IMG/VR virus record: IMGVR_UViG_3300034418_011142
Span: 1 to 64,000 of that record
DNA length: 64,000 nt
Source: a virus
Reading direction: 5' to 3' (one strand)
Shown here: positions 3,518 to 51,811 of the stretch, one piece after another
Numbering within the stretch: position 1 is the stretch's first letter
Layout of the letters: every line of letters begins with the position of its first letter
Position numbers and translations under genes: made by a program
The notes under the pieces: model-generated
Seen by the model: only the letters and a program-made list of their open reading frames with translations
Databases searched by the model: none
What the model was told of the DNA's origin: nothing

Positions 3518-4063
3518 ATGATCAAACTTGTAGATCTATTAAATGAAATAGATATACCCAAAAATAAATGGGTTACTATCCCTGCTTCTGAATTAAAGGA
3601 TTACAGTGAAGAAATTTTTAATTTAATTGATAACGCTTATACCCCAATAGGAGGTCATCCTAACTATAAATCAGCAGATAATGTATCAGGCAGTGAATCT
3701 GATGCGGAATATGAAGTAATAGATTTAGATGATGATCCTCAAATTGATGCTGTATCAGCTGCTAAACCTAAAGCAGCAGGTAAAAAGTTTACAGCAACAG
3801 GGCATGATGGTTCTAGTGCTGCTAAATCTAGTGTTGTAAATTACAAAGCATCCCAATTAAAAACAGGAGGATATTTTGTAGAAGTATCAGGTAAAATAAA
3901 AGATATCTTCAAAGCTAAAGGTGTAGAAGCTATTAACGATGAAGAATTGGTACGTAAAGTACTTAAGGGAAAAGAAATTGAGTGGTTAGGTAATGGAGAA
4001 TATAAAAGAGAAATTGGTGGTAAAGTATTTACTAAAGCATTAATGGGAAAACCAACAGTATGA
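3518..4063 (+). CDS. Putative capsid-cargo protein, unrecognised
   Basis: 181 residues. The N-terminus MIKLVDLLNE ends in Leu-x-Glu at residue 10, the same length and pattern as the T4 internal-protein targeting peptide MKTYQEFIAE. The middle (about 45-100) is acidic then Ala/Lys/Ser-rich and probably disordered. A folded segment from about residue 105 contains GGYFVEVSGKIKDIFKAKG and WLGNGEYKREIGGK. No enzymatic motif is seen. It overlaps the following kinase gene by four bases, and that protein begins with a similar tag. Confidence 0.6.
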   Translation: MIKLVDLLNEIDIPKNKWVTIPASELKDYSEEIFNLIDNAYTPIGGHPNYKSADNVSGSESDAEYEVIDLDDDPQIDAVSAAKPKAAGKKFTATGHDGSSAAKSSVVNYKASQLKTGGYFVEVSGKIKDIFKAKGVEAINDEELVRKVLKGKEIEWLGNGEYKREIGGKVFTKALMGKPTV

Positions 4064-4860
4064 TAAGTTTAGTACAATTATTAAGAGAAGCACAAGGTAG
4101 CCCTAAAGCGGTTATCTTAGCAGGAGCACCTGGAGCAGGTAAAGGATATGTTTTACGTGGTCTAGATCTAGGTGGCCTAAAGGTAATGAATGTAGATAAT
4201 TTGTATATAAATAATCTAAAAAAAGCAAATGTATCTTTAGATTTAAAAAACTCTACACCTGAAGAAAGAAGTGAAGCAGCAAAAGCAATGGCAGCAGCTG
4301 TTAAAGATTTTAAAGGAGATGTAGCTGATACAATTGAAGCTAAAGAATCATTTATATTAGATGGTACAGCAGCATCAGTAAAACAAACTACACAGTTAAA
4401 AAGTGAATTAGAGGAAGCAGGATATGAAGTATTTATGCTTTATGTTTATACTGATCTAGAACGTTCATTAAGACAAAACCAAGACAGATTTGAAAAATCA
4501 GATGGTGAAGATAGAAGTTTAGCACCCTCTATTGTAATGCGTACTTGGTTAGGTGTAACTAAAAATTGGGCACCATATAAAGATATGTTTGGAGGTAATT
4601 TTGTTTCTGTTGCTAACACATTAGAAGACGAAAAGTTAAAAGATGTAGAAGATGTAATTAAAAAATATCTTGACCCATTTAAACCAACAGGTACTAAACC
4701 AAAAACTCCAGCCCAACAAGCTAGAAGTGATAAACAAAAAGCAGAATTAAATGCTGATGTTCAAGCATTATTAAGTGATGATGGAGCTAAAGATATTATA
4801 GATGGTTCTGTATCTAAGGAAGAGGCACAATCTAAACTAAAACAATTCTTATCTAAATGA
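4060..4860 (+). CDS. P-loop kinase, zeta-toxin/polynucleotide-kinase-like, with N-terminal tag
   Basis: 266 residues. A Walker A motif GAPGAGKG occupies residues 22-29 and is followed by VMNVDNLY, a likely substrate-binding Asp. FILDGTAA near residue 98 is the Walker B-like strand, and YVYTDLERSLRQNQDR resembles the lid/Arg segment of zeta-toxin and AAA_33 kinases. The first ten residues, MISLVQLLRE, resemble the tag of the gene before. The C-terminal 60 residues are Lys/Gln/Ala-rich and helical. The substrate (nucleotide, nucleic acid end or a sugar-nucleotide as in zeta toxins) cannot be told. Tag and neighbours suggest packaging into the head, which is inference. Confidence 0.65.
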   Translation: MISLVQLLREAQGSPKAVILAGAPGAGKGYVLRGLDLGGLKVMNVDNLYINNLKKANVSLDLKNSTPEERSEAAKAMAAAVKDFKGDVADTIEAKESFILDGTAASVKQTTQLKSELEEAGYEVFMLYVYTDLERSLRQNQDRFEKSDGEDRSLAPSIVMRTWLGVTKNWAPYKDMFGGNFVSVANTLEDEKLKDVEDVIKKYLDPFKPTGTKPKTPAQQARSDKQKAELNADVQALLSDDGAKDIIDGSVSKEEAQSKLKQFLSK

Positions 4861-7076
4861 GTTTAGTAAACGAATTAATAAAAGGGTTATTACCTGAAGA
4901 GGAAAAAAAACAAACTACAGCAGTATATGCTGGTGGTTTTAAACCACCTACTTCTGGGCATTTTGAAGTTGTAAAACAAGCACTTAAAGAAAATCCTGAG
5001 ATAGATGAGTTTATTATTTTTGTAGGTGCTAAAGAACGAAATGGTATTTCCCAATCTGAATCCTTATTAATTTGGGAAATATATAATAATTATCTTCCGT
5101 TTAAAGTTAAAATAGAACCTACCTCTATTCCTCCAATTAAAGCAGTATATGATTTTTCCAAAAACCATCCTACAAGAGAGGTATTATGGGTTATAGGTGC
5201 AAGAGAAGGAAACGAAGAAGATTTTAAAGATATTACCTCTAGGACATCTTCAATTTCAAAATATCCAAATCTAGAACTTCGTACTATTATAACTAAAGGT
5301 GGAGTATCAGGTACAGCCGCTCGTAACGCAGCTAAAGTTTCACTTGATAAGTTTGCAAAATTTGTACCCGACCAACTATCAGACGAAGAAACAGAAGAAG
5401 TATATAATATAGTAGCAGATAAAATCCAAGAAATCCAAACACCAGCTAAAGAAAAAGATGTTGACCCTAAAGAACTTAAAATGGGGATCAAAGTTGAAAT
5501 GGAACATACAGATGATCCAGCTAAAGCTAAAGTAATTGCTTTACAACATTTAGCTGAGGATCCAAAATATTATACTAAATTAGCTAGTTTAGGATTAGAA
5601 GAAAAAAAAGATCCTAAAAAAGGTACAGGCAAAAAACCAGAAGGTTCAGGACGTAGATTATACACAGATGAAGATCCTAAAGATACAGTAGGTGTTAAAT
5701 TTTCTACTAGACAAGATATTGTAGATACTTTAAACAAAAAATCTTTTAAAGCTAAATCACATGCTCGTCAATCCCAAATTATTAATTTAATACATCAAAG
5801 AGTAAGAGCGGCATATGGTAGAGCAAAGGATCCTGATGTTAAAAAACGTTTAAAAACAGCTTTAGATTATGCTGAAGAAAGAAAAGAAGCATCTAAAGAA
5901 AAAACTCAACGTTTAAAAAAACAAAAAAGCGAAAATGTAGCTCCTAATCATAAAGGTAAAGCTGCACCTTATGGCTCAGGATATAAAAAACTAAAAGAAA
6001 ATGCTACATATTCTCAACACATAGACATAGTTGAAAAAATAGCTGATTTAACTAACTATATGATAGAAAGTGGTTTAAATATTGAACCTCTACCTACTAT
6101 GGAATTTATAGATGGTGACACAGAAAATGCTCAAAATTTCTTTGGTAAAACAGCATATTATGATCCCAATAATCAGCATATTGTATTGTATACTGAAGGT
6201 AGACATCCAAAAGATATATTACGTTCATATGCGCATGAAATGATACATCATATACAATATTTAGAAGATAGATTACATAATATCACTACTACAAATACTA
6301 ATGAAGATGAAGATTTAGATGCTATTGAAAAAGAAGCATATGTTAGAGGTAATATGACATTTAGAAATTGGACAGATAGTTTAAATGAAGCAATTGTAGG
6401 TGAAAAAATCGAATGTGATAATTGTGACTGGAGTTGGAATATAAAAGATGGTGGTGATGATTTATTTATATGTCATAAATGTGGGCATAACAATAAACCT
6501 CTAAGTGAAGGTAAGAAAAAAGACCCATTTGGTTTATTAGCATATGCTCAAGAATTAGGTCGTTTGAGAGAGGAAGAAAGCGAATATAAAGTCTATTTAG
6601 ATATGGATGGTGTATTAGCTGATTTTGATCAACGTTTTAGAGACATATCAGGAATGGAACCGAAAGAATTTGAAAATAAATATGGTACAAAAGCATTTTG
6701 GAACCTTATAGACGAGGAAAATAAAATTAAATTTTGGGTTGGTATTCCCGTAATGCCAGGTGCTGCTGATTTAGTAGATGCTGTTAAAGATTATAATTAT
6801 GAATTATTAACATCACCCTCAGCTAAAAAACAATCATATTTAGGAAAAATTCTTTGGGTAAAAAATCATACAGGTGACGTGTTTCCCTCAAAACCTCGTA
6901 TTAACTTTAAGAAAGCAAAGGAAAAACACCTTGTTAAACCACAGCTAGCAAAAACAGATATTCTAATAGATGATAGAGAAGATACTATTGGAAGGTGGAA
7001 TGCAGCAGGTGGTACAGGTATAGTATACAAAAATATAAGCCAAGTACTAAACGACTTGGGCAAATTAGGTTTATGA
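4857..7076 (+). CDS. Multi-domain fusion: nucleotidyltransferase, DUF5661-like, zinc peptidase-like, zinc ribbon, HAD phosphatase
   Basis: 739 residues. Domains in order: (1) about 20-165, HIGH-type nucleotidyltransferase with AGGFKPPTSGH (24-35) and GGVSGTAAR (148-156); (2) about 205-245, a DUF5661-like MGIKVEMEHT segment; (3) about 255-380, a basic SGRRLYTDEDP ... SHARQSQIIN domain; (4) about 385-510, a zinc-peptidase-like region with HEMIHH (460-465); (5) Cys520, Cys523, Cys539, Cys542 zinc ribbon; (6) about 577-739, HAD 5'-nucleotidase-like with DMDGVLADF (582-590) and DILIDDREDT. Leu-x-Glu or related motifs (GLEEKK, KLKEN, LSEGKK, RLREEE) sit at domain borders, so it may be a polyprotein processed by the prohead protease. 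Overlaps four bases with both neighbours. Confidence 0.7.
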   Translation: MSLVNELIKGLLPEEEKKQTTAVYAGGFKPPTSGHFEVVKQALKENPEIDEFIIFVGAKERNGISQSESLLIWEIYNNYLPFKVKIEPTSIPPIKAVYDFSKNHPTREVLWVIGAREGNEEDFKDITSRTSSISKYPNLELRTIITKGGVSGTAARNAAKVSLDKFAKFVPDQLSDEETEEVYNIVADKIQEIQTPAKEKDVDPKELKMGIKVEMEHTDDPAKAKVIALQHLAEDPKYYTKLASLGLEEKKDPKKGTGKKPEGSGRRLYTDEDPKDTVGVKFSTRQDIVDTLNKKSFKAKSHARQSQIINLIHQRVRAAYGRAKDPDVKKRLKTALDYAEERKEASKEKTQRLKKQKSENVAPNHKGKAAPYGSGYKKLKENATYSQHIDIVEKIADLTNYMIESGLNIEPLPTMEFIDGDTENAQNFFGKTAYYDPNNQHIVLYTEGRHPKDILRSYAHEMIHHIQYLEDRLHNITTTNTNEDEDLDAIEKEAYVRGNMTFRNWTDSLNEAIVGEKIECDNCDWSWNIKDGGDDLFICHKCGHNNKPLSEGKKKDPFGLLAYAQELGRLREEESEYKVYLDMDGVLADFDQRFRDISGMEPKEFENKYGTKAFWNLIDEENKIKFWVGIPVMPGAADLVDAVKDYNYELLTSPSAKKQSYLGKILWVKNHTGDVFPSKPRINFKKAKEKHLVKPQLAKTDILIDDREDTIGRWNAAGGTGIVYKNISQVLNDLGKLGL

Positions 7077-10395: not shown

Positions 10396-12648
10396 ATGTT
10401 AAACGAGCGCAAACTCACCGAAAACGAATTGGAGCAAAGAAAAATCGCTCTCAAAGGTTTGTTGAAAAACAAACGTGCTCTAGTTAAAAAGTACGGTGCG
10501 GATGCGGAAAAAGTTATGTATGGTATTGCTACTAAACAAGCTAAGAAAAAAGTTGAAAATATGAACTTAGACAAACTTAAAGAAATGATCCAGGATGCTC
10601 TTACAGTTAAAGAGGCATCCCCTTTTGTATTAGCAGCAGACGCAGCTAGAGATGCAGGTAAAAAAGAATTTGAATTCCCTAAAGGCAGTGGCAAAATGCA
10701 CCCTGTTACAATTAAACAGGATATTAAAGAAGATGATTTAGATATAGATGATACTATAAATATTGATACTGGTTTTTCTGGTAGAGCAGATTATGGTGAA
10801 GAAGATAAAGCATTAGGTCAAGAAGATGAACTCGAAATGAAAGGTTTAGAAGAAGATAAATTCCGTGATTCTTCAATGGAAGATGTATTTCAATCTATTA
10901 GAAATCTTGCCCATACTACAGGTATGTCAGAACAAGAAGCAGCTGAAAATGCAATAGATGAAATTAAATTTAAGTTTGGAGTTGATGCTATGTACGAATC
11001 TTTAAACGAAAACCTAAACCCTGAAGTAACTCAAAAAGTAAACCAGTTTATTAAAGCAATGGCTAAACGATATGATTACAGTGAACAAGATGCTGTATAC
11101 GCTATCATGGCTGCTTTAAAACAAAGAAAATTTGATGGTTTAAATGAAGATCTAGACGTTGGGCATCAAGACAACGAACCTCACATGCTTAAAAAAGATT
11201 TATATAGAATAGCTAAATATGCAGCTGAACTATATAAAATGATGGATAAATACGATCAAGGTGGAGAAGTAGATTTTCCACACTGGTGGCAATCTAAAGT
11301 TATCAAAGCAAGAGATTATATGGTAGCTGCTAAACACTATTTAGATGGTGAAGAAAAAGTAGACCAAATCGATGCTATGTTAGATGTTAATGAAATTGAT
11401 AATAGTGAATACGCTATGAAGCTTAGAGCACTTAAATCACAACCAGAACCATCTAGAGGTGGAATTGACTACGATGAAGCTTTAACTTTAAGAGGTATAA
11501 AAGCTGAAATCGAAGCTGAAATTGCCCAATTATACAGAGATATGGAACAAGAAGCTGAACCAGAAGGTGGTGAGGTAGCTGATAGATATGGACGTGAATT
11601 AGAAAGGTTAGAAGACCGTTTATATAAAGTTCAAAAACAACTTCGTGATTATGATATGAATGAAGGAGTAAATGAAGAATTATCACCTGAAGATCATTTA
11701 CAAATTGTTAGAGCTATGCTTGTAAAAGCTGAAAAGGATGGAGATGATGACTTAAAAAGAAGAGCTTTAGCTGATATGGAAACCGTTAAGAAAGCATATA
11801 ATTTAAAAGAAGAAATGGATGGTGGTCAATTATTTGATTACTTTGCTAAACAAGGATATGATGTAGAAGAACGTAGACCAGATGGAAGAGAAGCTGGATT
11901 TGAAGGTTATATGGTAAGCTACGGAGATGGTCCATACCCTCAATCAGTAATATTCCAACATAATAAAGATACTGATCAATTTATGATTAGTAGAATGGGT
12001 GGTTATAGAATCGATCAAAAAGATGCTATAAAAGCAGGAATGAGACAAGCAGGCTCTTCAGGTATTGCTGGAAGAGATTCTTATATGACAGATGGAAATT
12101 ACACCCCAGTAGATATTTCAGCTGAAGGTTTAAAAGATATAGTTGATCACGTAATGGGTGGTTTAGGAAGAGAAGCTAAAGCACAAGCAGACTTTTATGG
12201 TGCTAGAGGACGTACTTCAGGTACTATAGATGAAGAAAAAATCGAAGTAGATGCTGATACAAAATTTGAATTACCTTTAAAACACCTTATCCAAAAACAC
12301 GTTAAAGAGGTAATGGATAGCAGAAAGAAAAAAGAATTCAAAGTAGGCGATAAAGTAACATACTTAGGACATCCAGGTGAAATCACTAAAGTTAATAAAG
12401 AAATGACTGGTGCTACTACCTATAATGTATCATATGATAAAGGTACAGGTAAAACTAAAGCATCAAACATCTATAATAAAGGTGGTGAAATAAAAGCTTT
12501 AGAAGAAAAACTTACCAAAAAATCATCAGTAGAAAAACATATTGAAGATTTTAAAGATTCAGATGCACCTCAATTTAAAGGTAAATCTCAAGAAAAAAGA
12601 CGTAAAATGGCTGTTGCAGCTTATTTGTCTAAAAAAGATAAAAAATAA
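10396..12648 (+). CDS. Large modular protein of unknown function with KOW-like segment
   Basis: 750 residues. Modules by eye: a basic N-terminal helix with an early Leu-x-Glu (MLNERKLTE); an acidic linker; two small repeated helical units with [20 protein letters not shown] and similar [19 protein letters not shown]; a domain near 260-310 ([20 protein letters not shown] ... FPHWWQSK) of a kind common in marine phage proteins; a long coiled coil; a mixed region near 480-600; and [16 protein letters not shown] near 650, which looks like a KOW/SH3 barrel. Several internal Leu-x-Glu sites (SLNENL, GLNEDL, NLKEEM) separate modules, as in the fusion at 4857. Function unknown. Confidence 0.6.
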
Positions 12649-14273: not shown

Positions 14274-15044
14274 ATGTGTAAATGTGGATGTAATACTTGT
14301 GAAACTAAAATTAGAGGCCCTTTACTAACCGAAGGTAAAGTAAAATCTTTATTATCTGAAGGTTTACAATACCATATAGATAAAAAAATACCTTTATTTG
14401 AAACAGTATATCGTATTGGTTCAGAAAAACATTTAGCTTTAATTAAAGAAGCTAGAAAAATGTATTCACGTAATGTAATCGATTTATGTGAAGAAGATGA
14501 AGCGTTAATTGGTACACATTTAGGTGAATTTGCTTTATATGAAGGCGAATCTGTACCATTAGATTTACCTATGTTAAATGAAGCTAAAGTTGATTATAAT
14601 TTTTCAAAAGAAGAACTAATTAGAGTTATCAAGCAACTTAAAAGAGGAGCTAGTACTGAAATAGGAATGATTAAAGCCTTTGAAAAAGCTTTAGGTAGAG
14701 AACTTACAGATGATGAAATTAGAGGATTCAAACTAAATGAAGCAGAATTAGATGAAGCTGAATTTAGAGGTAAAGATGTTCCACTAAACAAACCAAAACG
14801 TGGTGGTTCAAAAGCATATTATGTTTATGTACGTGATCCTAAAACTAAAAAGATTAAAAAAGTATCATTTGGATCAGGTGGTTTAAGAGCTAAAATAAAA
14901 AACAAAGAAGCACGTAACGCCTTCGCAGCACGTCACAATTGTAAAAATAAAAAAGATAGAACAAAAGCGGGATATTGGTCTTGTAATTTACCAAGATATG
15001 CTTCAGCATTAGGTTTAGGTGCTAATATGAATACTTTTTGGTAG
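14274..15044 (+). CDS. Conserved phage protein with KAYYVYVRDP-type C-terminal domain
   Basis: 256 residues. The start has a Cys cluster (MCKCGCNTCE) followed by two Leu-x-Glu-Gly sites (GPLLTEGK, SLLSEGL). The central part is helical with further Glu-rich linkers. The C-terminal 90 residues (GGSKAYYVYVRDPKTKKIKK ... GYWSCNLPRYA ... NTFW) form a basic domain of a type I recall from T4-like marine phages, without known function. It is followed after one base by the next gene. Head association is inferred from the early cleavage-like sites only. Confidence 0.6.
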   Translation: MCKCGCNTCETKIRGPLLTEGKVKSLLSEGLQYHIDKKIPLFETVYRIGSEKHLALIKEARKMYSRNVIDLCEEDEALIGTHLGEFALYEGESVPLDLPMLNEAKVDYNFSKEELIRVIKQLKRGASTEIGMIKAFEKALGRELTDDEIRGFKLNEAELDEAEFRGKDVPLNKPKRGGSKAYYVYVRDPKTKKIKKVSFGSGGLRAKIKNKEARNAFAARHNCKNKKDRTKAGYWSCNLPRYASALGLGANMNTFW

Positions 15045-16334: not shown

Positions 16335-16582
16335 TGCAGCCATACAAAAATAAAGGTAATATAAGAACGTTTTCGAAAGATGTAAATAAACTAGAACTAG
16401 TTTGGCATCAAGACGCTGAAGATAGAGATATCGAGATATTAGAAGGTAAAGGATGGGAATTACAAATGGATAATGAATTACCCTTTGAATTAGTAAAGGG
16501 AGATCGTATATTTATAACAGAAGGTAGAATACACCGAATATTAAAAGGTACAACCGATTTAAAAATAAAAATAAATGGATAA
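16334..16582 (+). CDS. Small cupin-like phage protein
   Basis: 82 residues. The pattern ELVWHQDAEDRDIEILEGKG ... LPFELVKGDRIFITEGRIHR resembles the two-half arrangement of a small cupin barrel, with His residues near 25 and 67 that could bind metal. It is of a conserved type in marine phages, but its function is not known to me. Its start overlaps the previous stop by one base, and its end overlaps the next start by eight bases. Confidence 0.5.
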   Translation: MQPYKNKGNIRTFSKDVNKLELVWHQDAEDRDIEILEGKGWELQMDNELPFELVKGDRIFITEGRIHRILKGTTDLKIKING

Positions 16583-16606
16583 TTTCGATTTAAAAAAATA
16601 TTTAGC
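16562..16606 (+). repeat. 45-base direct repeat, copy 1 (leader plus tag)
   Basis: These 45 bases, covering 13 bases before the ATG and the first eleven codons of the gene at 16575, are identical to 16923-16967. A diverged third copy starts near 17431. Confidence 0.9.
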
Positions 16607-16919
16607 TGAAGGTAGGCTATTTGAAGAAGAAATGAAAGCACCTAGTGGCTGGACTGAAATCAAAGACTTATCAGACCTACATTATAGCGAAGAAGATGGC
16701 GAAATAGCTGTTAAAGCATGGGATGCACCAATGGAAGGGTGGGATGAAGAACATAAAGACATGATCATAATAAGAAAAGATGATGATGGATTTTATTTAG
16801 ATGGGTATGTATCTTTTGGTGATTTTGAAATGCAAGGTCCATTTAACACATATGAAGAAGTGCTTAAATTAGCTGTTGAAGAAATGGAAGCCTTTAAAGA
16901 AGATTGGGACAAATCATAA
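16575..16919 (+). CDS. Putative capsid-cargo protein, tag family member 1
   Basis: 114 residues. The tag MDNFDLKKYLAEGRLFEEE is followed by an acidic globular part of about 95 residues with SGWTEIKDLSDLHYSEEDGE and Trp-rich PMEGWDEEHKDMI, not recognised. The tag, ending in Leu-Ala-Glu at residue 12, is shared with the next two genes and closely follows the pattern of the T4 capsid-targeting peptide (aromatic/hydrophobic-Ile-Ala-Glu). The bodies of the three proteins are unrelated, as expected for cargo carrying a common address signal. Confidence 0.65.
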   Translation: MDNFDLKKYLAEGRLFEEEMKAPSGWTEIKDLSDLHYSEEDGEIAVKAWDAPMEGWDEEHKDMIIIRKDDDGFYLDGYVSFGDFEMQGPFNTYEEVLKLAVEEMEAFKEDWDKS

Positions 16920-16922
16920 ACT

Positions 16923-16967
16923 AAAATAAAAATAAATGGATAATTTCGATTTAAAAAAATATTTAGC
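16923..16967 (+). repeat. 45-base direct repeat, copy 2 (leader plus tag)
   Basis: Identical to 16562-16606. It runs from 13 bases before the ATG at 16936 into codon 11, so the start region, not just the peptide, is duplicated. Confidence 0.9.
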
Positions 16968-17430
16968 GGAAGGTAGACTATTTAAAGAAGAACAAATGGG
17001 TTCTTATGGAAAATTTTTAAAGGTAGTAAAATCATATGAAGATGAAGAAATACTATCCGATTTTTTAGATTCATACCCTAAGGGACAGGATATTAGTAAA
17101 AGTGAATATGATAAATTTACTGAAAAACATTTTGGTCTAGCTGACCCTGAAGATCACCGAGGTAAAAATTGGAAATATATTATGTCTGAAGGACGCTTAT
17201 TAAAAGAAGAATTAACTCCCCTTCAACAGTATGTTTACAACTTCGAAAAAGAAGTTAGTGGTGAAGATAATGCAAAAGAGTTTTTAGATGGTATTAAAAA
17301 ATTAAATACTCCTAAAGATGTTTATGATTATTATGCTTTTGAAAGAAATTGGGAAGGTGATAGTGATCTAGAAGGAGATTTAGAAAATATTTACAATCAA
17401 GTATTAGATAAATTTAAAAGTAAAAATTAA
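16936..17430 (+). CDS. Putative capsid-cargo protein, tag family member 2 with internal second tag
   Basis: 164 residues. The N-terminal tag MDNFDLKKYLAEGRLFKEE is followed by an 60-residue acidic module. Near residue 83 the sequence SEGRLLKEELT appears, nearly the same at DNA level as the tag of the next gene (17181-17216 against about 17471-17506), and a second acidic module follows. It therefore looks like two cargo genes joined after loss of the second start. If the protease cuts at both tags, two small proteins would be released. Neither module is recognised. Confidence 0.65.
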   Translation: MDNFDLKKYLAEGRLFKEEQMGSYGKFLKVVKSYEDEEILSDFLDSYPKGQDISKSEYDKFTEKHFGLADPEDHRGKNWKYIMSEGRLLKEELTPLQQYVYNFEKEVSGEDNAKEFLDGIKKLNTPKDVYDYYAFERNWEGDSDLEGDLENIYNQVLDKFKSKN

Positions 17431-17436
17431 AACAAA

Positions 17437-18018
17437 ATGGATAACTTTGATTTAAGAAAATATTTAGCTGAAGGTCGCTTATTAAAAGAAGAATTAACTT
17501 TTTCTTTTGACGAATATAGCTATGAAATCGATGATGCTGCTTATCAAGCAGAAGTAGAAGCAGGTATTAAAGCTCAATTACCAAACATTTCAGATAAAGT
17601 TCTACAAGCTATTATAGATAGTTCTGTAGAATACTACTATGATCAAAGAGAAGAAGATGTACCTTCTAGCAATATCGTAGATATGGCAGTTGATTATTAC
17701 AACGATGAAATGACTGGAGACAGTAAACCATCTGCTCCAAGACAAAAATATGATTTATCTGGTGTTGATTTAAGTGGATTAGATAAAGGTCAAAAAGCAG
17801 CTTTTGATGTATTTGTAGATGTTTACCTTAAACCTTATGGTGAAGATGAAACACAAGAAGAACTAGAGCGTTATGTTAGACAATTTGGAAAAGTAGAAGA
17901 TGCGTACGATATCGATTCTATCATCCCAAACTCATTTCAGTACGATAGTGATGAAAGAGAAGCTATGCAATCTAAAGTAAGAAACGCTTATTTATTTGCT
18001 TTTCAACCTATAAATTAA
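17437..18018 (+). CDS. Putative capsid-cargo protein, tag family member 3
   Basis: 193 residues. The tag is MDNFDLRKYLAEGRLLKEE. The body is acidic and helical with Tyr-rich stretches (SSVEYYYDQREEDVP) and a second half beginning LSGVDLSGLDKGQKAAFDVF, not recognised. Two acidic helical modules may be present. The gene ends the unit: a strong terminator hairpin follows 65 bases downstream. Confidence 0.65.
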   Translation: MDNFDLRKYLAEGRLLKEELTFSFDEYSYEIDDAAYQAEVEAGIKAQLPNISDKVLQAIIDSSVEYYYDQREEDVPSSNIVDMAVDYYNDEMTGDSKPSAPRQKYDLSGVDLSGLDKGQKAAFDVFVDVYLKPYGEDETQEELERYVRQFGKVEDAYDIDSIIPNSFQYDSDEREAMQSKVRNAYLFAFQPIN

Positions 18019-18145: not shown

Positions 18146-18370
18146 ATGAGTAAAAAACTTACCTCAAAAGAAATGATAGAAATGGAACAAAGAGGATTTA
18201 GAATACCTCTCCCAGTTTGGTTATATAATTTAAAAAAAGAGGATAAAATAGATTTTACTGAAGACAGAGTAAAAGATATGCTAAAATTTGCTGTTGAAAG
18301 AGAGTATTATGAAAAAGCAGCTATATTGAGAGATTTTTTAAAAAACAAAAATAAAAGTATAGATGAGTAA
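18146..18370 (+). CDS. Small protein with UVR-like motif
   Basis: 74 residues. The C-terminal half, VEREYYEKAAILRDFLKNK, matches the UVR helix-hairpin (YE-x-A-A-x-LRD) found in UvrB, UvrC and ClpC-associated proteins, where it mediates protein contacts. The N-terminal half (MIEMEQRGFRIPLPVWLY) is not recognised. AAAGGA lies just before the start. Its end overlaps the start of the FAD enzyme by eight bases, so the two are probably co-expressed; it could be an adaptor, but that is a guess. Confidence 0.6.
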   Translation: MSKKLTSKEMIEMEQRGFRIPLPVWLYNLKKEDKIDFTEDRVKDMLKFAVEREYYEKAAILRDFLKNKNKSIDE

Positions 18371-19655
18371 AAACGTAGTAATGATTGGAGCAGGTGTAGC
18401 AAATGTAAATGCTGCTACTAAGCTAGTTGACAATGGATTTAAAGGTAAAATCACTATTATTGATATGGGTAAAGATCCATATTTAAGACCTTATGAAGAA
18501 GTAATGACGGGCTTTTTAGGAGCAGGAGGTTGGTCTGATGGTAAATTAACTTACCATACTTCAATTGGAGGACAATTATCTAAATATTGTGGTGAAGAAA
18601 AGGCAATGGAATTGTTTGACCAGGTGATAGATAATTTTAAACGTTTCCACCCTAAACCAGAAGAAGTACAATGTTCAAATCCAGTTGCAGAACCTGATTT
18701 TATTAAACCATATTTTGGATTACGTTTATTCCCTGTATGGCACGTTGGTACAGATTACTTACATGAAATAGGTAAAAATTGGTATGACTATTTAGTTGAT
18801 AATGGTGTTGAGTTTGTATGGGAAACTAAAGTAACTGATATTGATTTTGATAATCAAGAAGTACATATTGGGTTAGGAGATGATTGGATAGATTATGATG
18901 AACTTATTTTTGGTGTAGGTAAATCAGGTATTGACTTTGGTAAACAATTAGCTGAAAAATATGATTTACCAACTGAACCAAAACCAGTACAAATAGGTGT
19001 TAGGTTTGAAGCACCACAAAAACACTTCCAAAAATTAATTGATATCTCATATGATTTTAAATTATACAGAAAATATGAAGATAAAGGTGTATCATTACGT
19101 TCATTTTGTACAAATAATAACGCTGCTTATGTTGCTGTAGAAGAAACATATGGAGACCATAGTTACAATGGACATGCCAAAAAAGATGAAGCATTTAGAA
19201 ATGATATGACCAATTTTGGTATTCTAATGGAAGTTAGAGGTATTGAAAAACCATTTGAATGGTCTAGAGATGTAGTAAATAAACTACAAAAAGATGGTAC
19301 TGGTTTATATTATAGTCCAAGTAGAGAACCATCTACAACATCTGAAGGTGTAGAAGTATCAGCAGTTAAAGTAGATACACTACATGAAATAACTAAAGCA
19401 ATGCAACCTTATTTTTGGTATGTATTGGATTTTATAGAGGATATGAAAAAAGTATTCCCAACACTTGAAGATGATTGGGGTATTTATGTTCCTGAAGTAA
19501 AATATCTATCACCTGAGCCACTTGTCGATTATACTAATTTAGCACTCACTAAGTATCCTAACGTACACTTTGTAGGCGATGCTTTATCAGCTAGAGGTAT
19601 AACGGTAAGTGGTGCACAAGGTACTTATGTTGCTGAATCACTTTTGGAGAATTAA
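18363..19655 (+). CDS. FAD-dependent dehydrogenase, COG2509-like
   Basis: 430 residues. An N-terminal Rossmann motif VVMIGAGVANVNAA has Gly9 and Gly11, with Asn14 where Gly or Ala is usual, and an acidic Asp34 ends the second strand. GAGGWSDGKLT (53-63) closely follows the GxGGxxxSDGKL signature of the COG2509 dehydrogenases. The C-terminal FVGDALSARGITVSGAQGTY is the second FAD-contacting segment. The reaction of this family is not established. It is an unusual auxiliary gene for a T4-like phage. No signal peptide is present, so it should act in the cytoplasm. Confidence 0.75.
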   Translation: MSKNVVMIGAGVANVNAATKLVDNGFKGKITIIDMGKDPYLRPYEEVMTGFLGAGGWSDGKLTYHTSIGGQLSKYCGEEKAMELFDQVIDNFKRFHPKPEEVQCSNPVAEPDFIKPYFGLRLFPVWHVGTDYLHEIGKNWYDYLVDNGVEFVWETKVTDIDFDNQEVHIGLGDDWIDYDELIFGVGKSGIDFGKQLAEKYDLPTEPKPVQIGVRFEAPQKHFQKLIDISYDFKLYRKYEDKGVSLRSFCTNNNAAYVAVEETYGDHSYNGHAKKDEAFRNDMTNFGILMEVRGIEKPFEWSRDVVNKLQKDGTGLYYSPSREPSTTSEGVEVSAVKVDTLHEITKAMQPYFWYVLDFIEDMKKVFPTLEDDWGIYVPEVKYLSPEPLVDYTNLALTKYPNVHFVGDALSARGITVSGAQGTYVAESLLEN

Positions 19656-26787: not shown

Positions 26788-28073
26788 AAAAAGCAGAAAA
26801 ATTATTTAAAGATTTGCTAAATGAAAATTTAGGATATATTGATCTTAAACCTATTAGCCAAATAGAAACTACACCTAAAGCAGATTTTGAAAATAAATTT
26901 GCTGAATTTTTAGCTGAAGAAAGCAAAAGAGAAAAAGAAGATGAAGCTGTAAAAGTTGATTCTAAAAAAGTAGCTAAATCTGTTGAAGAAATTGAAGACC
27001 ATAATTTTGACTATAAAGATCAAAAGAATTTAGATAATCAAATTGGTCAAGAAGTAATGAATGGTGTTTACTTTGAAGCTAAACAAAACCCAGATAAAAC
27101 AATTGATGAAATTAAAGAAATTGTAAGTAAAAATTTAGCTAAAGATCGTCAGTATTATATGAAAAATGCTGCTTTTGGTGTAGAAGGAATTGGATATGAA
27201 GATACAGAGTTGGAAGAAGTTAGTGGTAAATATGCTGCTAGTGGATATTCGGATAAGCTTAAAAAAGTGGTTAAGGAATCTTTAATGGGAGAATCATATG
27301 ATGAATTCCAGCGCGATGATAAAGGTGCTAAAGGTGTAGATAAAAAAGATAAAGGTGAAGAAGAAGCATTTGGTGCTGGGGTAGAAAAAGGTGAAAAAAT
27401 CGAAAAGAAAAAGATGTCTAAAAAAGCTAAAAAAGAATCAATTGATACTGATTTAGCTGAAATTGATAAACAAGCCCAAATTGTAGCTTTAGAAGCTAAA
27501 TTAAATAAAATAGATGAAGTTATTGAAAGTAAAATGAGCCGTATCAATATGGTATCCGAAGATGAAAACTTATCTGAATTAGTAGATAAGAAGAAAATGA
27601 AAGCCATGCAAAAAGAAGTTAAAGTCTTAGAAAAAAGAAAAGCTAAGATGGGAAAAATGTATGAAAAAATGTGTGGTAAAACATATCAAAGAGAAGAAAT
27701 CGTAGATGAAGTGGAAACTATTAATGAAAATGAGCAATTAAATGAAAATGATATGGTTGTAAGCTATAGGGGCGAAAAAATACCTATTAAATTTACAGGA
27801 TTTAAAGCTTTTGATGGAAGAGATGGTAGCCGTGATACAACAGACAATAAAGGTAGATTTGTTGTAGCTTTAGATGCAGAAAGAACTGATGGTAAACCAT
27901 TTATAGATAAAGAAAAATTTACTGTACATATTGTTACTAACCCAGGTGTTAGTAAAATAACCCAAGATGGAACCGTTCCTTTCCCTGATTTTAGTTCTTA
28001 TACATTTAAACCAAAAGTTGAAGATTTTGGGAAAACTATAGATTTTATTAAAAAAAATATAGATAATGGGTAA
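26784..28073 (+). CDS. Putative prohead core protein with many Leu/Ile-x-Glu sites
   Basis: 429 residues. MKKAEKLFKDLLNENLGY begins with a Leu-x-Glu. The first 330 residues are Lys/Glu-rich and helical, with an eight-residue linker region rich in Lys/Gly near 175-215. The C-terminal 100 residues (MVVSYRGEKIPIKFTGFKAF ... VHIVTNPGVSKI) are a separate beta-rich domain. Leu-x-Glu sites (INENEQLNEND) sit exactly at the join, so protease processing could separate the two parts. It directly precedes the protease gene and overlaps it by eight bases, like core genes in T4. Confidence 0.55.
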   Translation: MKKAEKLFKDLLNENLGYIDLKPISQIETTPKADFENKFAEFLAEESKREKEDEAVKVDSKKVAKSVEEIEDHNFDYKDQKNLDNQIGQEVMNGVYFEAKQNPDKTIDEIKEIVSKNLAKDRQYYMKNAAFGVEGIGYEDTELEEVSGKYAASGYSDKLKKVVKESLMGESYDEFQRDDKGAKGVDKKDKGEEEAFGAGVEKGEKIEKKKMSKKAKKESIDTDLAEIDKQAQIVALEAKLNKIDEVIESKMSRINMVSEDENLSELVDKKKMKAMQKEVKVLEKRKAKMGKMYEKMCGKTYQREEIVDEVETINENEQLNENDMVVSYRGEKIPIKFTGFKAFDGRDGSRDTTDNKGRFVVALDAERTDGKPFIDKEKFTVHIVTNPGVSKITQDGTVPFPDFSSYTFKPKVEDFGKTIDFIKKNIDNG

Positions 28074-28671
28074 ATCACTCTTAATAGAAACTAATACCTT
28101 TAAGGTTAACCCTCTTCAATTAACAGAAAATGTTAACAAGGAGACGGGTAACTTAATGGTTGAAGGAATTTTAGCTACTGCTGAAGTTAAAAACGGAAAT
28201 GGTAGATATTATTCTAAAGATCTCTGGAATAGAGAAATGGATAAGTATGATGAACTTATCAAAGAAAGACGCTCAATGGGCGAACTAGACCATCCAGAAT
28301 CTTCAGTTATAAACCTCCAAAACGTATCTCATTTAATCTCAGACTATTGGTGGGATGGAGATAATGTAATGGGTAAAATAGAAATTTTACCTACTCCTTC
28401 AGGTAATATACTTAAAGAACTAATTAAAGCAGGTGTAACAGTAGGTGTTTCATCTCGTGGAATGGGATCGTTAGAGCAAAATGGTAACGTAATGGAAGTA
28501 CAAGATGACTTTGAATTATTATGTTGGGATTTTGTTTCAACACCTTCTAACCCAGGTTCATTTATGCACACTTTAAATGAAGGAAAACAAACATTTGTTT
28601 ACGATTACAATAAAGTAAATAATATAGTACGAGAAATTCTTTGTTCAAAAGGTTCTTGTCCAATAACTTAA
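28066..28671 (+). CDS. 21: Prohead maturation protease (T4 gp21-like)
   Basis: 201 residues. The catalytic His lies in GELDHPESS (His76) and the Ser in VGVSSRGMG (Ser129 or Ser130), the arrangement of T4 gp21 and herpes-type assemblin proteases. NGNGRYYSKDLW near 43-54 is another conserved block. The enzyme sits in the prohead core, cuts scaffold, capsid and internal proteins after Glu in a hydrophobic-x-Glu context, and is destroyed with the core. Its own N-terminus contains Leu-Thr-Glu (PLQLTENV), perhaps self-cleaved. This gene is the basis for reading the tags of other proteins here as cleavage sites. Confidence 0.9.
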   Translation: MGKSLLIETNTFKVNPLQLTENVNKETGNLMVEGILATAEVKNGNGRYYSKDLWNREMDKYDELIKERRSMGELDHPESSVINLQNVSHLISDYWWDGDNVMGKIEILPTPSGNILKELIKAGVTVGVSSRGMGSLEQNGNVMEVQDDFELLCWDFVSTPSNPGSFMHTLNEGKQTFVYDYNKVNNIVREILCSKGSCPIT

Positions 28672-28847: not shown

Positions 28848-30197
28848 ATGTCAAACAACAGAGATTTGCTTAAAGAAGCAATTGCTGATGCTAAAGCTGT
28901 AAAAGAAACTGCTATAGCAAATGCCAAAGCTGCTTTAGAAGAAGCATTTACTCCACATTTAAAATCTATGCTAGCTGCTAAGTTAGAAGAGATGGATAAA
29001 GACGACGTTGATGAAGGGTACGATAAGTACGAAGAAGACGATGTTAAAATGGAAGAAGTAAATGAAACTGAAGAAGTAACTGAGGTAGAAGAGATTGAAG
29101 AAGAAATCAATCTTGACGAATTACTTGCAGAACTCGAAGAAGGTGAAGATAAGGACGAAGTTAAAGAATCTGAAGAAATTGAAGAATCTGAAGAAGTAAC
29201 CGAACAGGAAGAAGACGAAGCCGAAGAAGAAGGCGAAGACGAAGAAGCTGAAGGTGAAATGGAAGAGGAAGAAATCGATTTAGAAGACATGACTGAAGAC
29301 GATCTTAAATCTTTTATCGAAGATGTAATTAAAGACATGGTAGAAGCTGGTGAATTAGAAGCTGGAGAAGAAATGGAAATGGATGATGAAGAATCAGAAA
29401 TGGATATGGATATCGAAGTGGAAGATGAAGAAGAAGAAATCATGGAAATGGACGAAGTAAGCTGGAATGAAAAGAACAACCCTACAAGAGGAGCTAGTAA
29501 AAAAGAATTAGATCCTAAAAAGGTTGGAAAATCAACTGCTGCTTATGCCATTAATGAAGAAGAAGTAACTGAAGGTGATCCTGATGCTGCTGCTAGAGGC
29601 CTAGAAAACATTATTAACTTTGTTATCAAGAATGCCAAAAAAGGTAAAGATTGGTTAAAGAAAAATGTTGAAAAAGGATCTATGCAACAAGCTATGACCG
29701 AAATGGAAATAGAAGAAGGTGATCCAGATGCAGCTGCTAGAGGACTTGAAAACATTATTAATTTTGTCATGAAAAACGCCTCTAAAGGTGCTGATTGGCT
29801 TAAAAAGAATGTTAAAGTAGGTTCTATGCAGGATGCTATGACTTCAGAAGCGTTAGCTGAAATTGAAGAACTTAAAAAAGAACTTCAAGAAGTTAATTTA
29901 CTAAATGCTAAATTACTTTACACTAACAAAATCTTCAAATCTAAGAATTTGTCAGAAGACAAAAAAGTTAAAGTGTTAAAAGCTTTTGATAAAGCTGCAA
30001 CCGTAAAAGAAGCAAAAGTTATTTTTGAAACATTAAACGAAGGTATGTCATCTAAAATGACAAAATCCCCAATTAATGAAGTAAAAGGTAGTGCTTCAAA
30101 AGCTACAGGAGTTGCTCCTAAGGCTAAACAGCCAATTGTTGAAAACGCTGCATTTGCGCGTATGCAAAAATTAGCTGGAATTATTAAAGAAAATTAA
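28848..30197 (+). CDS. 22: Prohead scaffold protein (T4 gp22-like)
   Basis: 449 residues. MSNNRDLLKEAIADAKAVKE opens with Leu-Lys-Glu-Ala, a good protease site. Residues about 40-205 are extremely acidic, as in scaffolds of marine T4-like phages. A 49-codon module (DPDAAARGLENIINFV ... DWLKKNV ... GSMQ-x-AMT) occurs twice in tandem near 241-338. The C-terminal third is helical and ends MQKLAGIIKEN. The protein forms the inner core on which the shell assembles and is later degraded. It lies 28 bases before the capsid gene and shares its transcript. Confidence 0.85.
   Translation: MSNNRDLLKEAIADAKAVKETAIANAKAALEEAFTPHLKSMLAAKLEEMDKDDVDEGYDKYEEDDVKMEEVNETEEVTEVEEIEEEINLDELLAELEEGEDKDEVKESEEIEESEEVTEQEEDEAEEEGEDEEAEGEMEEEEIDLEDMTEDDLKSFIEDVIKDMVEAGELEAGEEMEMDDEESEMDMDIEVEDEEEEIMEMDEVSWNEKNNPTRGASKKELDPKKVGKSTAAYAINEEEVTEGDPDAAARGLENIINFVIKNAKKGKDWLKKNVEKGSMQQAMTEMEIEEGDPDAAARGLENIINFVMKNASKGADWLKKNVKVGSMQDAMTSEALAEIEELKKELQEVNLLNAKLLYTNKIFKSKNLSEDKKVKVLKAFDKAATVKEAKVIFETLNEGMSSKMTKSPINEVKGSASKATGVAPKAKQPIVENAAFARMQKLAGIIKEN
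29570..29843 (+). repeat. Tandem 147-base module duplication in scaffold gene
   Basis: Two copies about 147 bases apart encode near-identical 40-residue blocks (EGDPDAAARGLENIINFV then KKNV and GSMQ). The copies differ at many third positions, so the duplication is not recent. Confidence 0.75.
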
Positions 30198-30225: not shown

Positions 30226-31848
30226 ATGAGTTTACAAACTTTATTAGAAAGTGCAAACCCATATCACTCAGTACAAAGCGATGCCGCTAGATTGTCTGAA
30301 AAGTGGGAAAAAACAGGTTTGTTAGAAGGTTTGAAAGGTGCTTCCAAAAATAACATGGGAATGATCCTTGAAAACCAAGCTAAGCAACTTGTAGTAGAAA
30401 GCTCTCAAACGGGTGGTGGTAGTGCCTCACAAGGTACCTTTACTGCTGGTGTAGGTGAGCAATGGGCTGGCGTAGCTCTTCCTTTAGTACGTAAAGTATT
30501 TGGACAGATCGCTGCTCAAGAATTCGTATCAGTACAACCAATGAACTTACCTTCTGGTCTTGTATTTTTCCTAGATTTCCAATATGGAACTTCTAAGAAT
30601 CCATTTACTAGTGGTGATTCTATGTATGGTGATGCTGGTGCTGATCCATTTGGAAATACTAACACAGGTGGTCTTTACGGAGCTGGTAGATTTAGTTATT
30701 CAATCAATAATACTGCATCAACAGCAACTATTACACCAACTACAGCCTCTTGGTCTGACTTAAACTTCGATTCTGATTATTCAGCTTCTGCTACAGCTAA
30801 CAAGTACAGACTTGTAACTTTTAGTCTTGCAAACAAAAATGCTGATTTCGAAGGTGCTAGAGCATTTGTTCTTGAAGGTGGAGTTGGAGTTGAGGAAGGT
30901 ATTGCTTTACCTCAATTTACTACTGTATCAGGAACTGACGTAGTTTTCGTAATTTCTTCTTCATCTGAAGTAGGTGGTGGTGGTGCTGGATCTTACACTG
31001 TAGATTACCAGGTACAACCAACTGACCAATATAGAGGTGATTTCGAAGATGGAAACAATTCATTAAACGGAGGAAATACTCCAATTTCTATCCCAGAAAT
31101 TAACGTACAGATGAAATCATCTGCTATCGTAGCTAAAACTCGTAAGTTGAAAGCTGTATGGACTCCTGAGTTCGCACAAGACTTGAACGCTTACCATGCT
31201 CTAGATGCTGAAGCTGAATTAACTTCTATCTTAAGTGAGTACATTTCACTAGAAATTGACCTTGAGATCCTAGATATGTTGATTGAGTCTGCTGCTGCTG
31301 GAACAGAAGTATGGTCAGCTGTAAATAACAGATCTATCGTAGATAACGGTGCTGATGGTACTATTTCAGACCTAGGTTTCTACAATAGCCAAGGACAGTG
31401 GTTCCAAACTTTAGGAACTAAAATCCAAAAATTAAGTAACATCATCCACCAGAAAACTCTTAGAGGTGGTGCTAACTTCCTAGTATGTTCTCCAACTGTA
31501 GGTACTATCCTAGAATCTATTCCAGGATTTGCTGCTGATTCAGATGGTGATACTTCTAAAGCAAGTTACGCTTTTGGTGTACAAAAAGTAGGTGCTATTA
31601 ACAGCCGTCAGAAAGTTTATAAGAACCCTTACATGAAAGAAAACCAAATCCTATTAGGATTTAGAGGTGGACAGTTCTTAGAAGCTGGTGCTGTATTTGC
31701 TCCATACATTCCATTAATCATGACTCCTCTTGTATACGATCCAGATACGTTTACTCCACGTAAAGGTCTCTTGACTCGTTACGCTAAGAAGATGGTACGT
31801 CCTGAATTCTATGGATTGATCAAAGTAAATGGTTTAAATACTCTATAA
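30226..31848 (+). CDS. 23: Major capsid protein (T4 gp23-like)
   Basis: 540 residues. The HK97-fold capsid is recognised from VAKTRKLKAVWTPEFAQDLN and AEAELTSILSEYISLEIDLE, FLVCSPTVGTILESIPGF, and FLEAGAVFAPYIPLIMTPLV ... RKGLLTRYAKKMVRPEFYG, all typical of gp23. The N-terminal 65 residues form the scaffold-binding delta part; QLVVESSQTGG near 52-62 is the probable maturation cut, in the same place as T4 Glu65. Codon use in this gene is less AT-rich than in its neighbours, as expected for the most expressed protein. A strong terminator follows. Confidence 0.96.
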   Translation: MSLQTLLESANPYHSVQSDAARLSEKWEKTGLLEGLKGASKNNMGMILENQAKQLVVESSQTGGGSASQGTFTAGVGEQWAGVALPLVRKVFGQIAAQEFVSVQPMNLPSGLVFFLDFQYGTSKNPFTSGDSMYGDAGADPFGNTNTGGLYGAGRFSYSINNTASTATITPTTASWSDLNFDSDYSASATANKYRLVTFSLANKNADFEGARAFVLEGGVGVEEGIALPQFTTVSGTDVVFVISSSSEVGGGGAGSYTVDYQVQPTDQYRGDFEDGNNSLNGGNTPISIPEINVQMKSSAIVAKTRKLKAVWTPEFAQDLNAYHALDAEAELTSILSEYISLEIDLEILDMLIESAAAGTEVWSAVNNRSIVDNGADGTISDLGFYNSQGQWFQTLGTKIQKLSNIIHQKTLRGGANFLVCSPTVGTILESIPGFAADSDGDTSKASYAFGVQKVGAINSRQKVYKNPYMKENQILLGFRGGQFLEAGAVFAPYIPLIMTPLVYDPDTFTPRKGLLTRYAKKMVRPEFYGLIKVNGLNTL

Positions 31849-39144: not shown

Positions 39145-42100
39145 ATGCCCAATTGGAAAAAAATTATAGTTAGCGGATCAGACGCTACATTAAATTCTTT
39201 AGATGTTAGTAGTAGCATTACCGGCTCAGCATTACAGCTTGGAAATTTAGGAGATGAAAATGAAATCCTTATTGTTGGAGCTAATACAGAAGTTACTTCA
39301 TCTAATCTATTAGCTATTGATACGGTTAATCAAAGGGTAGGTATCGGAACCTCAACTCCTCAAGTAAAATTAGATTTAGTTGGTGAATCAAGTGGAGAAG
39401 CACAAATTAGAGTAGCCCAACACGATGATACTTCTGATGGTCCTGACATACGATTTTTCAAATCACATGGTACGGCAGCAGCTTCTTCCTCAGTTGCTAA
39501 TAATGATTATATTGGAGCAGTAAATGCTTTTGCTTATGATGGTAGTACCTATATTCAATCAGGATTCTTTGGATTCCAAGCAGACGGTACTGATGGTGAC
39601 TCTAAATTTGGATTAAGAACTCGTGTAGGTGGAACACTTACAGATAGAATTACAATAGATTCTGCAGGTGATGTAGGTATAGGAGGTTCTTTAGATGTTA
39701 GTACTTTTATAACAGGCTCTTCAGCAAAATTAACTTCAGTACCAACTGGTACAACAGAAAATAAAATATTATTAACCGACGGATCTGGTAATCTAGTTAC
39801 TAGAACTGATTTATCGTTACAAGGTGCAACTGGAGCTCAAGGTACTACAGGCACACAAGGTACAACTGGTACACAGGGTACAACAGGGACTCAAGGTACT
39901 ACAGGAACTCAAGGAGTTACTGGAACCCAAGGAACTACAGGTACACAAGGTACAACTGGAGACACAGGAAGTCAGGGAGCAACAGGTACACAAGGTACAA
40001 CGGGAGATACAGGAAGCCAAGGTGCAACAGGAACTCAGGGTACTACAGGTACTCAAGGAACCACAGGAACACAAGGCACAACAGGAATACAAGGCACAAC
40101 TGGAGATACAGGAAGCCAAGGAGCTACTGGAACACAAGGAACTACAGGAGATACAGGTTCACAAGGCGCTACAGGTACTCAAGGCATTACAGGAACACAA
40201 GGAACAACTGGAGATACTGGTTCTCAAGGAGCAACTGGAACTCAAGGAACAACTGGTACTCAAGGCACTACAGGCACACAAGGTACAACTGGTACACAGG
40301 GTACAACAGGGACTCAAGGTACTACAGGAACAGATGGTATAAGTACTTATGGTATACCTTATGACTTTGATTCTTCAACAACAGCGGCAGACCCTGGAAG
40401 TGGAGATATCAGATTAAGTATTGATTGGACTACAGGTATAGTAGGTAATTCTTATGAAGCTTATGTAAGCGAAACAGATGCGGATGGATTAGGTAGACCT
40501 TCTGTTTTAGATACACTTACTGAATCTACTAATGATAATAAAGCGATTATTACACTTTATGCTATAAACAATACTAATAAAAAAGCCCAATTTTACATTA
40601 CAGGTCAAACAGATAATGGCTCGTGGAGAACTTTAGATATTGTTTATATTGATAGAGATAACTGGACAATTAGTAATGGAGATCCTTTATATTTTTCAAT
40701 TTCCCTTATAGGAGATGAAGGAGCACAAGGTGCAACTGGAGCACAAGGTACAAATGGTACTCAAGGCACAACAGGCACACAAGGAACAACTGGAGATACA
40801 GGATCTCAAGGCGCAACTGGAACTCAGGGAACTACAGGAGATACAGGAAGCCAAGGAGCTACTGGTACACAGGGAACAACAGGGACTCAAGGTACAAACG
40901 GAACACAAGGTACAACAGGTACACAAGGAACTACAGGAGATACTGGTTCACAGGGAGCAACAGGTACTCAAGGAACTACAGGTGATACAGGTTCACAAGG
41001 TGCTACTGGTACACAAGGTACAAACGGAACACAAGGGGTTACAGGAACTCAAGGCACAACAGGTACACAAGGCACAACTGGAGATACAGGAAGCCAAGGA
41101 GTTACTGGAACACAAGGAACTACAGGAGACACTGGTTCACAAGGTGCAACAGGAACACAAGGAACAACAGGCACACAAGGTATTACAGGCACACAAGGAA
41201 CTACTGGAACACAAGGCACAACTGGAGACACTGGTTCACAAGGCGCAACTGGAACTCAAGGCACAACTGGAGATACTGGTTCACAGGGTGCAACAGGAGC
41301 ACAAGGATCTCAAGGTACAACAGGCACACAAGGCACAACTGGAGATACAGGAAGCCAAGGTGCAACAGGAACACAAGGTACTACAGGTACACAAGGTACA
41401 AATGGTACTCAAGGCACAACAGGAACACAAGGTACTACAGGTACTCAAGGGATAACTGGTACCCAAGGAATTACAGGTACTCAAGGAGCTACAGGAACAC
41501 AAGGTACAACTGGGACTCAAGGTGCAACAGGAAGCCAAGGTACAAATGGTACTCAAGGTACTACAGGCGCTCAAGGAACTACAGGTACGCAGGGTGCAAC
41601 AGGAACTCAGGGAACAAATGGTACTCAAGGAACAACTGGTACACAAGGTGCAACAGGTACACAAGGAGCCCAAGGTGAAGATGGTATTCAAGGAGCTACA
41701 GGCGCTCAAGGTACTACAGGCGCTCAAGGTACTACAGGAACACAAGGTGCAACAGGAAGCCAAGGTACAAATGGTACTCAAGGAACAAATGGTACTCAAG
41801 GTACTACAGGCACACAAGGAGCAACTGGTGCACAAGGTACAAACGGAACACAGGGTACAAATGGTACTCAAGGAACAACTGGTACACAAGGTGCAACAGG
41901 AAGCCAAGGTACAAATGGAACACAAGGTACAACTGGGGCACAAGGGGCTATAGGAACTCAAGGAATAACAGGAGCACAAGGTGCAAATGGTACTCAAGGA
42001 ATAACAGGAGCACAAGGTGCAAATGGTACTCAAGGAACAAATGGAACACAGGGTACTACAGGAACACAAGGTGCTACAGGCGCTCAAGGCACTACAGGAA

Positions 42101-47350: not shown

Positions 47351-47351
47351 A

Positions 47352-47609
47352 ATGATAATAGGTAATCAAAAATTAACAGAAGAAGAATTTAACATTGGAA
47401 ATTCTTTACATAATAAAAGGTTAGAATATTTAATACAATTAGGTGAAATTAAATTAGCCGAATTAGAAAATGAACGTCGATTAGAAGAAGTTTATACTAA
47501 TATAATTGAATTAAATACTAAAGAAAATTTATTTCAACAAGATATGTTTAATAAGTATGGAAAAGGTCAAGTTGATTTAGTAAACCAAGTATATGTTAGA
47601 AACGTTTAA
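47352..47609 (+). CDS. Small coiled-coil protein, paralogue of 53080 gene
   Basis: 85 residues. It reads as a long helix, then KYGKGQVDLVNQVYVRNV at the end, which parallels KYGEGNIDLEKGEFTKAS in the protein at 53080. Short proteins with this K-Y-G-x-G-x-x-DL ending are frequent in marine T4-like phages and remain uncharacterised. Its last 17 bases overlap the dioxygenase start. It may be a structural or chaperone part. Confidence 0.6.
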   Translation: MIIGNQKLTEEEFNIGNSLHNKRLEYLIQLGEIKLAELENERRLEEVYTNIIELNTKENLFQQDMFNKYGKGQVDLVNQVYVRNV

Positions 47610-48808: not shown

Positions 48809-48831
48809 AATTATTAGGATAAGTAAATTAA

Positions 48832-48845
48832 TTTTTGTATATTGG
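48832..48845 (+). promoter_or_regulatory. Second-class promoter-like motif (TTTTTGTATATTGG)
   Basis: It ends seven bases before the ATG at 48853. A TTG inside it could be read as a start for the next gene but is better explained as part of the motif. Confidence 0.35.
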
Positions 48846-48852
48846 TTTTTAT

Positions 48853-51799: not shown

Positions 51800-51811
51800 C
51801 AAATTTGCATA

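Follow-up and report, generated by a model that had tools for sequence, protein, structure and literature searches.

Why should a T4-like phage encode a nucleotidyltransferase, a peptidase-like domain and a nucleotidase within a single chain, with Leu-x-Glu-type motifs at the points where one domain gives way to the next? The locus that raises this question lies in a fragment of a marine T4-like phage (record of 68,863 bases), of which we analysed a stretch of 64,000 nucleotides, referred to here as the window. The nearest isolate to this phage is Flavobacterium phage immuto, with approximately 69% identity in terminase and portal DNA. A sequence-only reading had described the ORF at 4857-7076 as an enzyme fusion that looked meant to be cut in the prohead, and the coordinates and length that it gave (739 residues) are exact; its title spoke of five parts, but it listed six, and six are present besides a short N-terminal tag. 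We put the probability at roughly 80% that this ORF encodes a virion polyprotein which is targeted to the prohead by its tag and cut at its joins by a gp21-type protease, the pieces being ejected with the DNA to act early in the next host. The layout of the chain is given below, a slash marking the end of each candidate site.

4857-4898, plus strand: N-terminal capsid-targeting-like tag, residues 1-14 (MSLVNELIKGLLPE/); tag columns occur in relatives and E14 falls in a segment with pLDDT<50
4899-5432, plus strand: HIGH-type nucleotidyltransferase (NTase), residues 15-192, ending at KIQE192/; PPAT fold, phrog_395
5433-5603, plus strand: DUF5661 module, residues 193-249, ending at GLEE249/; Pfam PF18905
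5604-5999, plus strand: basic helical module, residues 250-381, ending at KLKE381/; found in other orders and standalone in relatives
6000-6389, plus strand: zincin-like metallopeptidase module, residues 382-511, ending at SLNE511/; HExxH and fold matches
6390-6509, plus strand: zinc ribbon, residues 512-551, ending at PLSE551/; Cys motif
6510-6572, plus strand: tag-like linker DPFGLLAYAQELGRLRE572/EE; aligns with a neighbouring gene's tag, pLDDT<50
6573-7076, plus strand: HAD 5'(3')-deoxyribonucleotidase-like domain, residues 573-739 plus stop; phrog_2643, 3bwv

The domain calls of the sequence-only reading largely hold, with profile or fold searches recovering the NTase, DUF5661, zincin and HAD, and the Cys motif identifying the zinc ribbon. 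The NTase matches the phrog_395 cytidyltransferase profile (E 8e-6), and structure comparison places its fold with the PPAT/NMNAT type (Z 17.6 to 6b7b, rmsd 2.5 over 152 residues), the matches taking in PPAT as well as NaMN adenylyltransferases; the fold list for the whole model is dominated by this domain. DUF5661 is recovered by Pfam as PF18905 (E 1.1e-10, 42.1 bits against a gathering cut-off of 27). The HAD domain matches the phrog_2643 5'-3' deoxyribonucleotidases (E 1.5e-24) and the fold of PDB 3bwv (Z 14.9), and its score against Pfam NT5C, 18.3 bits, lies under the cut-off of 24.8. In the zincin, HExxH and a downstream Glu (E109/E111) are invariant among family members, and the model of this module (pLDDT 91) has Wss1 (Z 8.5), IrrE (7.8) and ArdC (6.9) as its best PDB folds. 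The zinc ribbon is readable in the sequence as CxxC...CxxC, with weak matches to HypA, and profile searches matched the basic module to no named family. Chemistry by the NTase and HAD on NAD or nucleotide pools, as suggested before, fits these folds, and the NTase, matching both folds, may resynthesise a nucleotide cofactor of the NAD or CoA type.

Scanning viral contigs revealed an abundant family, with 80 loci from which 55 distinct full-length members were extracted, ranging from 455 to 1,325 residues. The GGFKPPTxGH-type signature of the HIGH superfamily and the HAD catalytic motif DxDGV are each found in 50 of these 55 relatives; with this many full-length members whose catalytic motifs are mostly intact, we dismissed a pseudogene or frameshift origin for the ORF. 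The order of modules is fixed at the ends, with the NTase always first, the HAD last and the zincin between, and what varies are DUF5661, the basic module, the zinc ribbon (Cys motif in 25/55, before or after the zincin), an ART-like module, a second HAD, a RegB-like module and others, several of these matches being weak. The same modules lie upstream of the zincin in some members and downstream in others, with LxE at the module starts in the examples read, and the basic module occurs in other orders in relatives and as a standalone gene in locus L070. Immuto encodes the HAD and DUF5661 as genes of their own, the former with the leader MKKVMGNLADLLLEE/SDF and the latter starting MKKSQLRQIIKE/ALD, and both leaders end in an LxE-type site. 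Matches to ART-PolyVal and Tox-ART-HYD1 are confined to relatives and fall below curated cut-offs; the inserted modules that weakly match these ADP-ribosyltransferases (L080:8001-10451 and L026:8001-10892) recall T4 Alt.

The motif at the joins is retained while the modules around it change. The four Leu-x-Glu-type sites named in the sequence-only reading lie at joins, at E249, E381, E551 and E572; to these we add two that it missed, E192 (DKIQE) and E511 (SLNE), as well as the tag site ending at E14. Directly before the zincin, [LIVMF]-x-E is present in 55/55 members although the upstream modules vary, with L, V, I or M at P3 and Glu at P1 in every case, compared with 4-12/55 for other spacings (LE, LxxE, LxxxE, LxxxxE). 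An alignment of 50 sequences shows the P1 Glu of this linker, E381, to be invariant (50/50), and elsewhere among the relatives the Glu is kept in 46/49 at E192, 36/39 at E511, 37/46 at E572 and 30/44 at E551. When joins were defined independently by homology breakpoints, LxE occurred near them at 24.5 per 1000 residues versus 8.0 elsewhere, a ratio of 3.06, compared with approximately 1.0-1.2 for LE, LxxE, LxxxE and LxxxxE, 1.45 for L-x5-E, and mostly 0.8-1.3 across the controls (other spacings, reversed, D/K); the ratio for [LIV]xE[NGAHS] was 7.06. The rate of 8.0 away from joins is also lower than the 14.7 per 1000 residues of the remaining ORFs at these loci, which is consistent with selection against internal cuts. 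Among control genes the breakpoint enrichment of LxE was 2.13 for downstream head genes and 1.55 for upstream genes, where LxxxE also reached 1.45, so this mildly raised upstream set does not constitute a clean negative control.

Structure prediction had been proposed as the test on which the polyprotein reading could fail, were the motifs to lie inside folded domains. In the AlphaFold model of this protein, which was built from 50 sequences and has a mean pLDDT of 78, segments with pLDDT<50 span residues 12-15, 190-217, 234-266, 268-273, 361-383, 511-515, 549-561 and 563-574, and all seven of the seven join sites (E14, E192, E249, E381, E511, E551 and E572) fall in these linkers. Overall, residues with pLDDT<50 make up 17% of the chain and contain 8/15 [LIV]xE motifs (p=0.0012), the eighth being LAE234 within DUF5661. 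LxE also occurs in folded parts, at E45, E51, E74, E393 and E620, and so the motif alone is insufficient and accessibility must matter too.

Terminase, portal, head maturation protease and major capsid protein are encoded at 21.6-31.8 kb of the window, the genes of most interest here being the following.

28066-28671, plus strand: gp21-type head maturation protease, the proposed cutter; phrog_207 E 1.4e-59, with LxE sites of its own at LTE21/N and LNE172/G
28848-30197, plus strand: likely prohead scaffold/core protein, between the protease and capsid genes; 29 LxE, 12 of them strong
30226-31848, plus strand: major capsid protein; phrog_138 E 4.1e-68; its N-terminal region contains LxE sites, LVVE58/SS among them

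The likely scaffold has the most LxE of any ORF in the window, its assignment being positional since it matched no family. The abundance of LxE in this protein, its presence close to either terminus of the protease and its occurrence in the N-terminal part of the capsid protein are what one would expect of a gp21-like specificity. With a matching protease in the genome, sites in linkers and joins that keep the motif as modules change in 55 relatives, the proposal of a prohead-cut polyprotein is supported.

Other genes in the window also drew our attention. A 750-residue protein (10396-12648) with 16 LxE and joins of the LNEN/LNED/VNEE type resembles a second polyprotein, and a 256-residue protein (14274-15044) has seven strong LxE and an N-terminal CxCxxCxxC-like cluster; relatives of the latter are among the LxE-densest proteins of all loci, and it is possibly another polyprotein or a core protein. 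Between the tagged genes described below and the terminase lies an FAD/NAD-binding oxidoreductase-like protein (18363-19655; GAGVANVNAATKL). Further along, a 1,851-residue collagen-like protein (39145-44700) with GTQGTTGTQG repeats and a long IGGG..N repeat region is a probable tail fibre, and a block of glycosyltransferase- and methyltransferase-like ORFs (46121-53039), read from sequence only, sits within the structural region, with the fibre gene on one side and a sheath-like gene on the other.

The leader of the window protein, MSLVNELIKGLLPE14/, is short and ends in a site of the [LI]-x-E type. Tag columns ending L-L-x-E are present in about 39/50 relatives and absent in about 11/50, in which targeting must work otherwise; the tagless relatives (L040, L043, L028, L047 and others) start directly at the NTase, lacking both a leader and any in-frame start further upstream. 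Neighbouring genes of the window likewise bear N-terminal tags that end in LxE and are exchangeable.

4060-4860, plus strand: Zeta-toxin/AAA-type kinase (Pfam Zeta_toxin E 1.6e-16), with the tag MISLVQLLRE/A and a 4-base overlap with the polyprotein start
16575-18018, plus strand: three consecutive genes (16575-16919, 16936-17430 and 17437-18018) starting MDNFDL(K/R)KYLAE/GRL, with near-identical leaders and different bodies

In relatives, unrelated tags (MDNFNLKKYLTEG..LLKE/A or MDNFNLKKYLTEGSLLKE/A, and MNDFDFKKYLAEGRLLRE/D) stand ahead of the same GAPGAGKG enzyme. The NF(D/N)L pattern, a loose one that includes a few chance matches, is found in 64 proteins among the loci, 57 of them downstream of the polyprotein gene, and once the leader is removed these proteins form 15 body clusters. 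The gene at 16936-17430 repeats a tag-like stretch internally (YIMSEGRLLKEE), where its two halves meet, which gives it the look of a fusion of two tagged genes. Across the complete immuto genome, LxE occurs in the first 28 residues of 19/29 head-block ORFs versus 41/187 elsewhere (p=5e-6), with weaker results for other spacings.

These leaders bear on which protease would act at the joins. The embedded zincin might itself cut the chain, as has been proposed for polyvalent proteins with P1 DdrB as the precedent (PMC5512222), and the retention of HExxH and the third Glu in all members would be in keeping with this. However, the same LxE, which is the known gp21 motif, ends the leaders of zincin-free proteins (the kinase, the three tagged genes and the immuto DUF5661 gene); the likely scaffold is rich in it, the prohead protease has copies close to each terminus, and the capsid protein has others in its N-terminal part. 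We regard self-cutting by the zincin as very unlikely.

The tags may also report on how the chain arose. The linker before the HAD resembles the tag of a neighbouring gene (MDNFDLKKYLAEGRLFEEE), scoring 39 against a shuffled-tag mean of 26, with 11/2000 shuffles reaching 39; this tag-like linker suggests that genes with tags fused one after another to build up the chain. An effector of the polyvalent kind could be packaged by its tag, lose the leader alone and be injected whole, its internal LxE being tag remnants of the fused genes. The separate tagged HAD gene of immuto and the tag-like linker are both compatible with this, and packaging without processing is known for polyvalent proteins such as the N4 virion RNA polymerase (PMC5512222). 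Remnants should decay, though, and E381 is kept in 50/50 and E192 in 46/49 sequences; the motifs are moreover retained in flexible linkers, within reach of a protease active in the prohead. Injection of the intact chain thus seems unlikely to us, and we continue to favour a polyprotein cut at its joins.

Is there reason to believe that such a protein enters the virion at all? The sole experimental link to packaging is a remote one, provided by the cyanophage GC190 cytidyltransferases. The T4-GC190 protein of the cyanophage core (S-SM1, S-ShM2; phrog_395) has a homologous NTase and an LxE-type leader, the S-SM1 protein beginning MKKFSAFLNE/AERS, and GC190 was detected in purified S-SM1 virions by mass spectrometry by Sullivan et al. 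2010 (PMC3037559). The NTase family aligns with the GC190 proteins along its entire length (hhalign probability 93.9, E 1.6e-7), a significant profile comparison, whereas direct BLAST of the NTase against HTVC008M gp130 was not significant, and the homology is remote. Unlike the window ORF, T4-GC190 has no fused zincin or HAD in the two proteins read, being a single NTase with a long N-terminal extension. By analogy, packaging of the NTase is supported by this published homologue. A quite different proposal is that the ORF is a cytoplasmic multifunctional metabolic enzyme that is never packaged, with LxE as ordinary linker residues, and the NTase and HAD folds would be plausible in nucleotide or NAD metabolism late in infection. 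The enrichment at joins is nevertheless specific to one spacing, the gene carries a tag and has head genes as neighbours, unrelated cargo including ART-like modules is swapped in and out, and the remote homologue is packaged in S-SM1, all of which makes a purely cytoplasmic role highly improbable in our estimation.

The virion polyprotein that we propose is a variant of two known themes, the capsid-targeted internal proteins of T4 and the polyvalent effector proteins. Cleavage by T4 gp21 follows L/I-x-E, and leaders of 10 residues direct internal proteins into the head (PMC9026906); the likeness to IPI-IPIII and Alt (PMC9026906) extends to the short leader ending L/I-x-E, the head-gene context, the gp21-type protease and the effector-like cargo. 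In T4, however, each leader serves one protein and is lost (Alt also loses a C-terminal piece), whereas in the present chain a single leader is followed by at least six different modules, each join having its own site. Like the polyvalent proteins of Iyer et al. 2017 (PMC5512222), these chains combine several unrelated enzymatic domains, a zincin-like domain being common to both and ART-like modules occurring in relatives, but in the polyvalent proteins it is the internal zincin that is credited with processing, and the joins here carry the head-protease motif. The NTase-HAD framework was not found in that paper (PMC5512222), whose searched text contains neither DUF5661 nor Pelagibacter. Substrates of the phiKZ-like prohead proteases (SPN3US, 201phi2-1) also include injected head proteins with known cuts after Glu at x-x-E, although the motif is S/A-x-E or A-x-E and the SPN3US cuts, the protease's own aside, remove N-terminal propeptides (PMC10052503). 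In both T4 and SPN3US the reported cuts mostly concern terminal propeptides or core-protein fragments rather than multi-enzyme chains. A search of the open-access literature found no phage polyprotein that a prohead protease cleaves, and no paper on immuto virion proteomics.

In the mechanism that we envisage, one chain would be produced together with the head genes and drawn into the prohead core by its N-terminal tag, where the gp21-type protease would cut after the Glu of L/I/V-x-E at the module joins, freeing the NTase, DUF5661, the basic protein, the zincin, the zinc ribbon and the HAD nucleotidase within the head. With a head-protease motif at every join, the phage can probably pack the chain and cut it into separate enzymes. 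The freed pieces would then leave along with the DNA and go to work at an early stage in the next host, whose proteins and nucleotide or NAD pools are conceivable targets; we infer that nucleotides may be the substrate of the HAD and host proteins that of the zincin, and that the basic piece may act on DNA. We also lean towards a broader view, that 'one tag, many cargoes' operates in widespread marine and freshwater T4-like phages, in which a recombining polyprotein would carry changing effector enzymes behind one leader and the protease would free them in equal numbers before injection.

If true, this would be the first capsid protease to process a multi-enzyme polyprotein in a tailed phage, as far as open-access searches reached, and the dosing and co-delivery of injected enzymes would be directly testable through virion proteomics. 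Phage effectors that are injected with the DNA are hard to detect by homology. If LxE-delimited modules do mark injected effectors, then their boundaries, and much of the set, would be readable from sequence in many uncultured T4-like phages.
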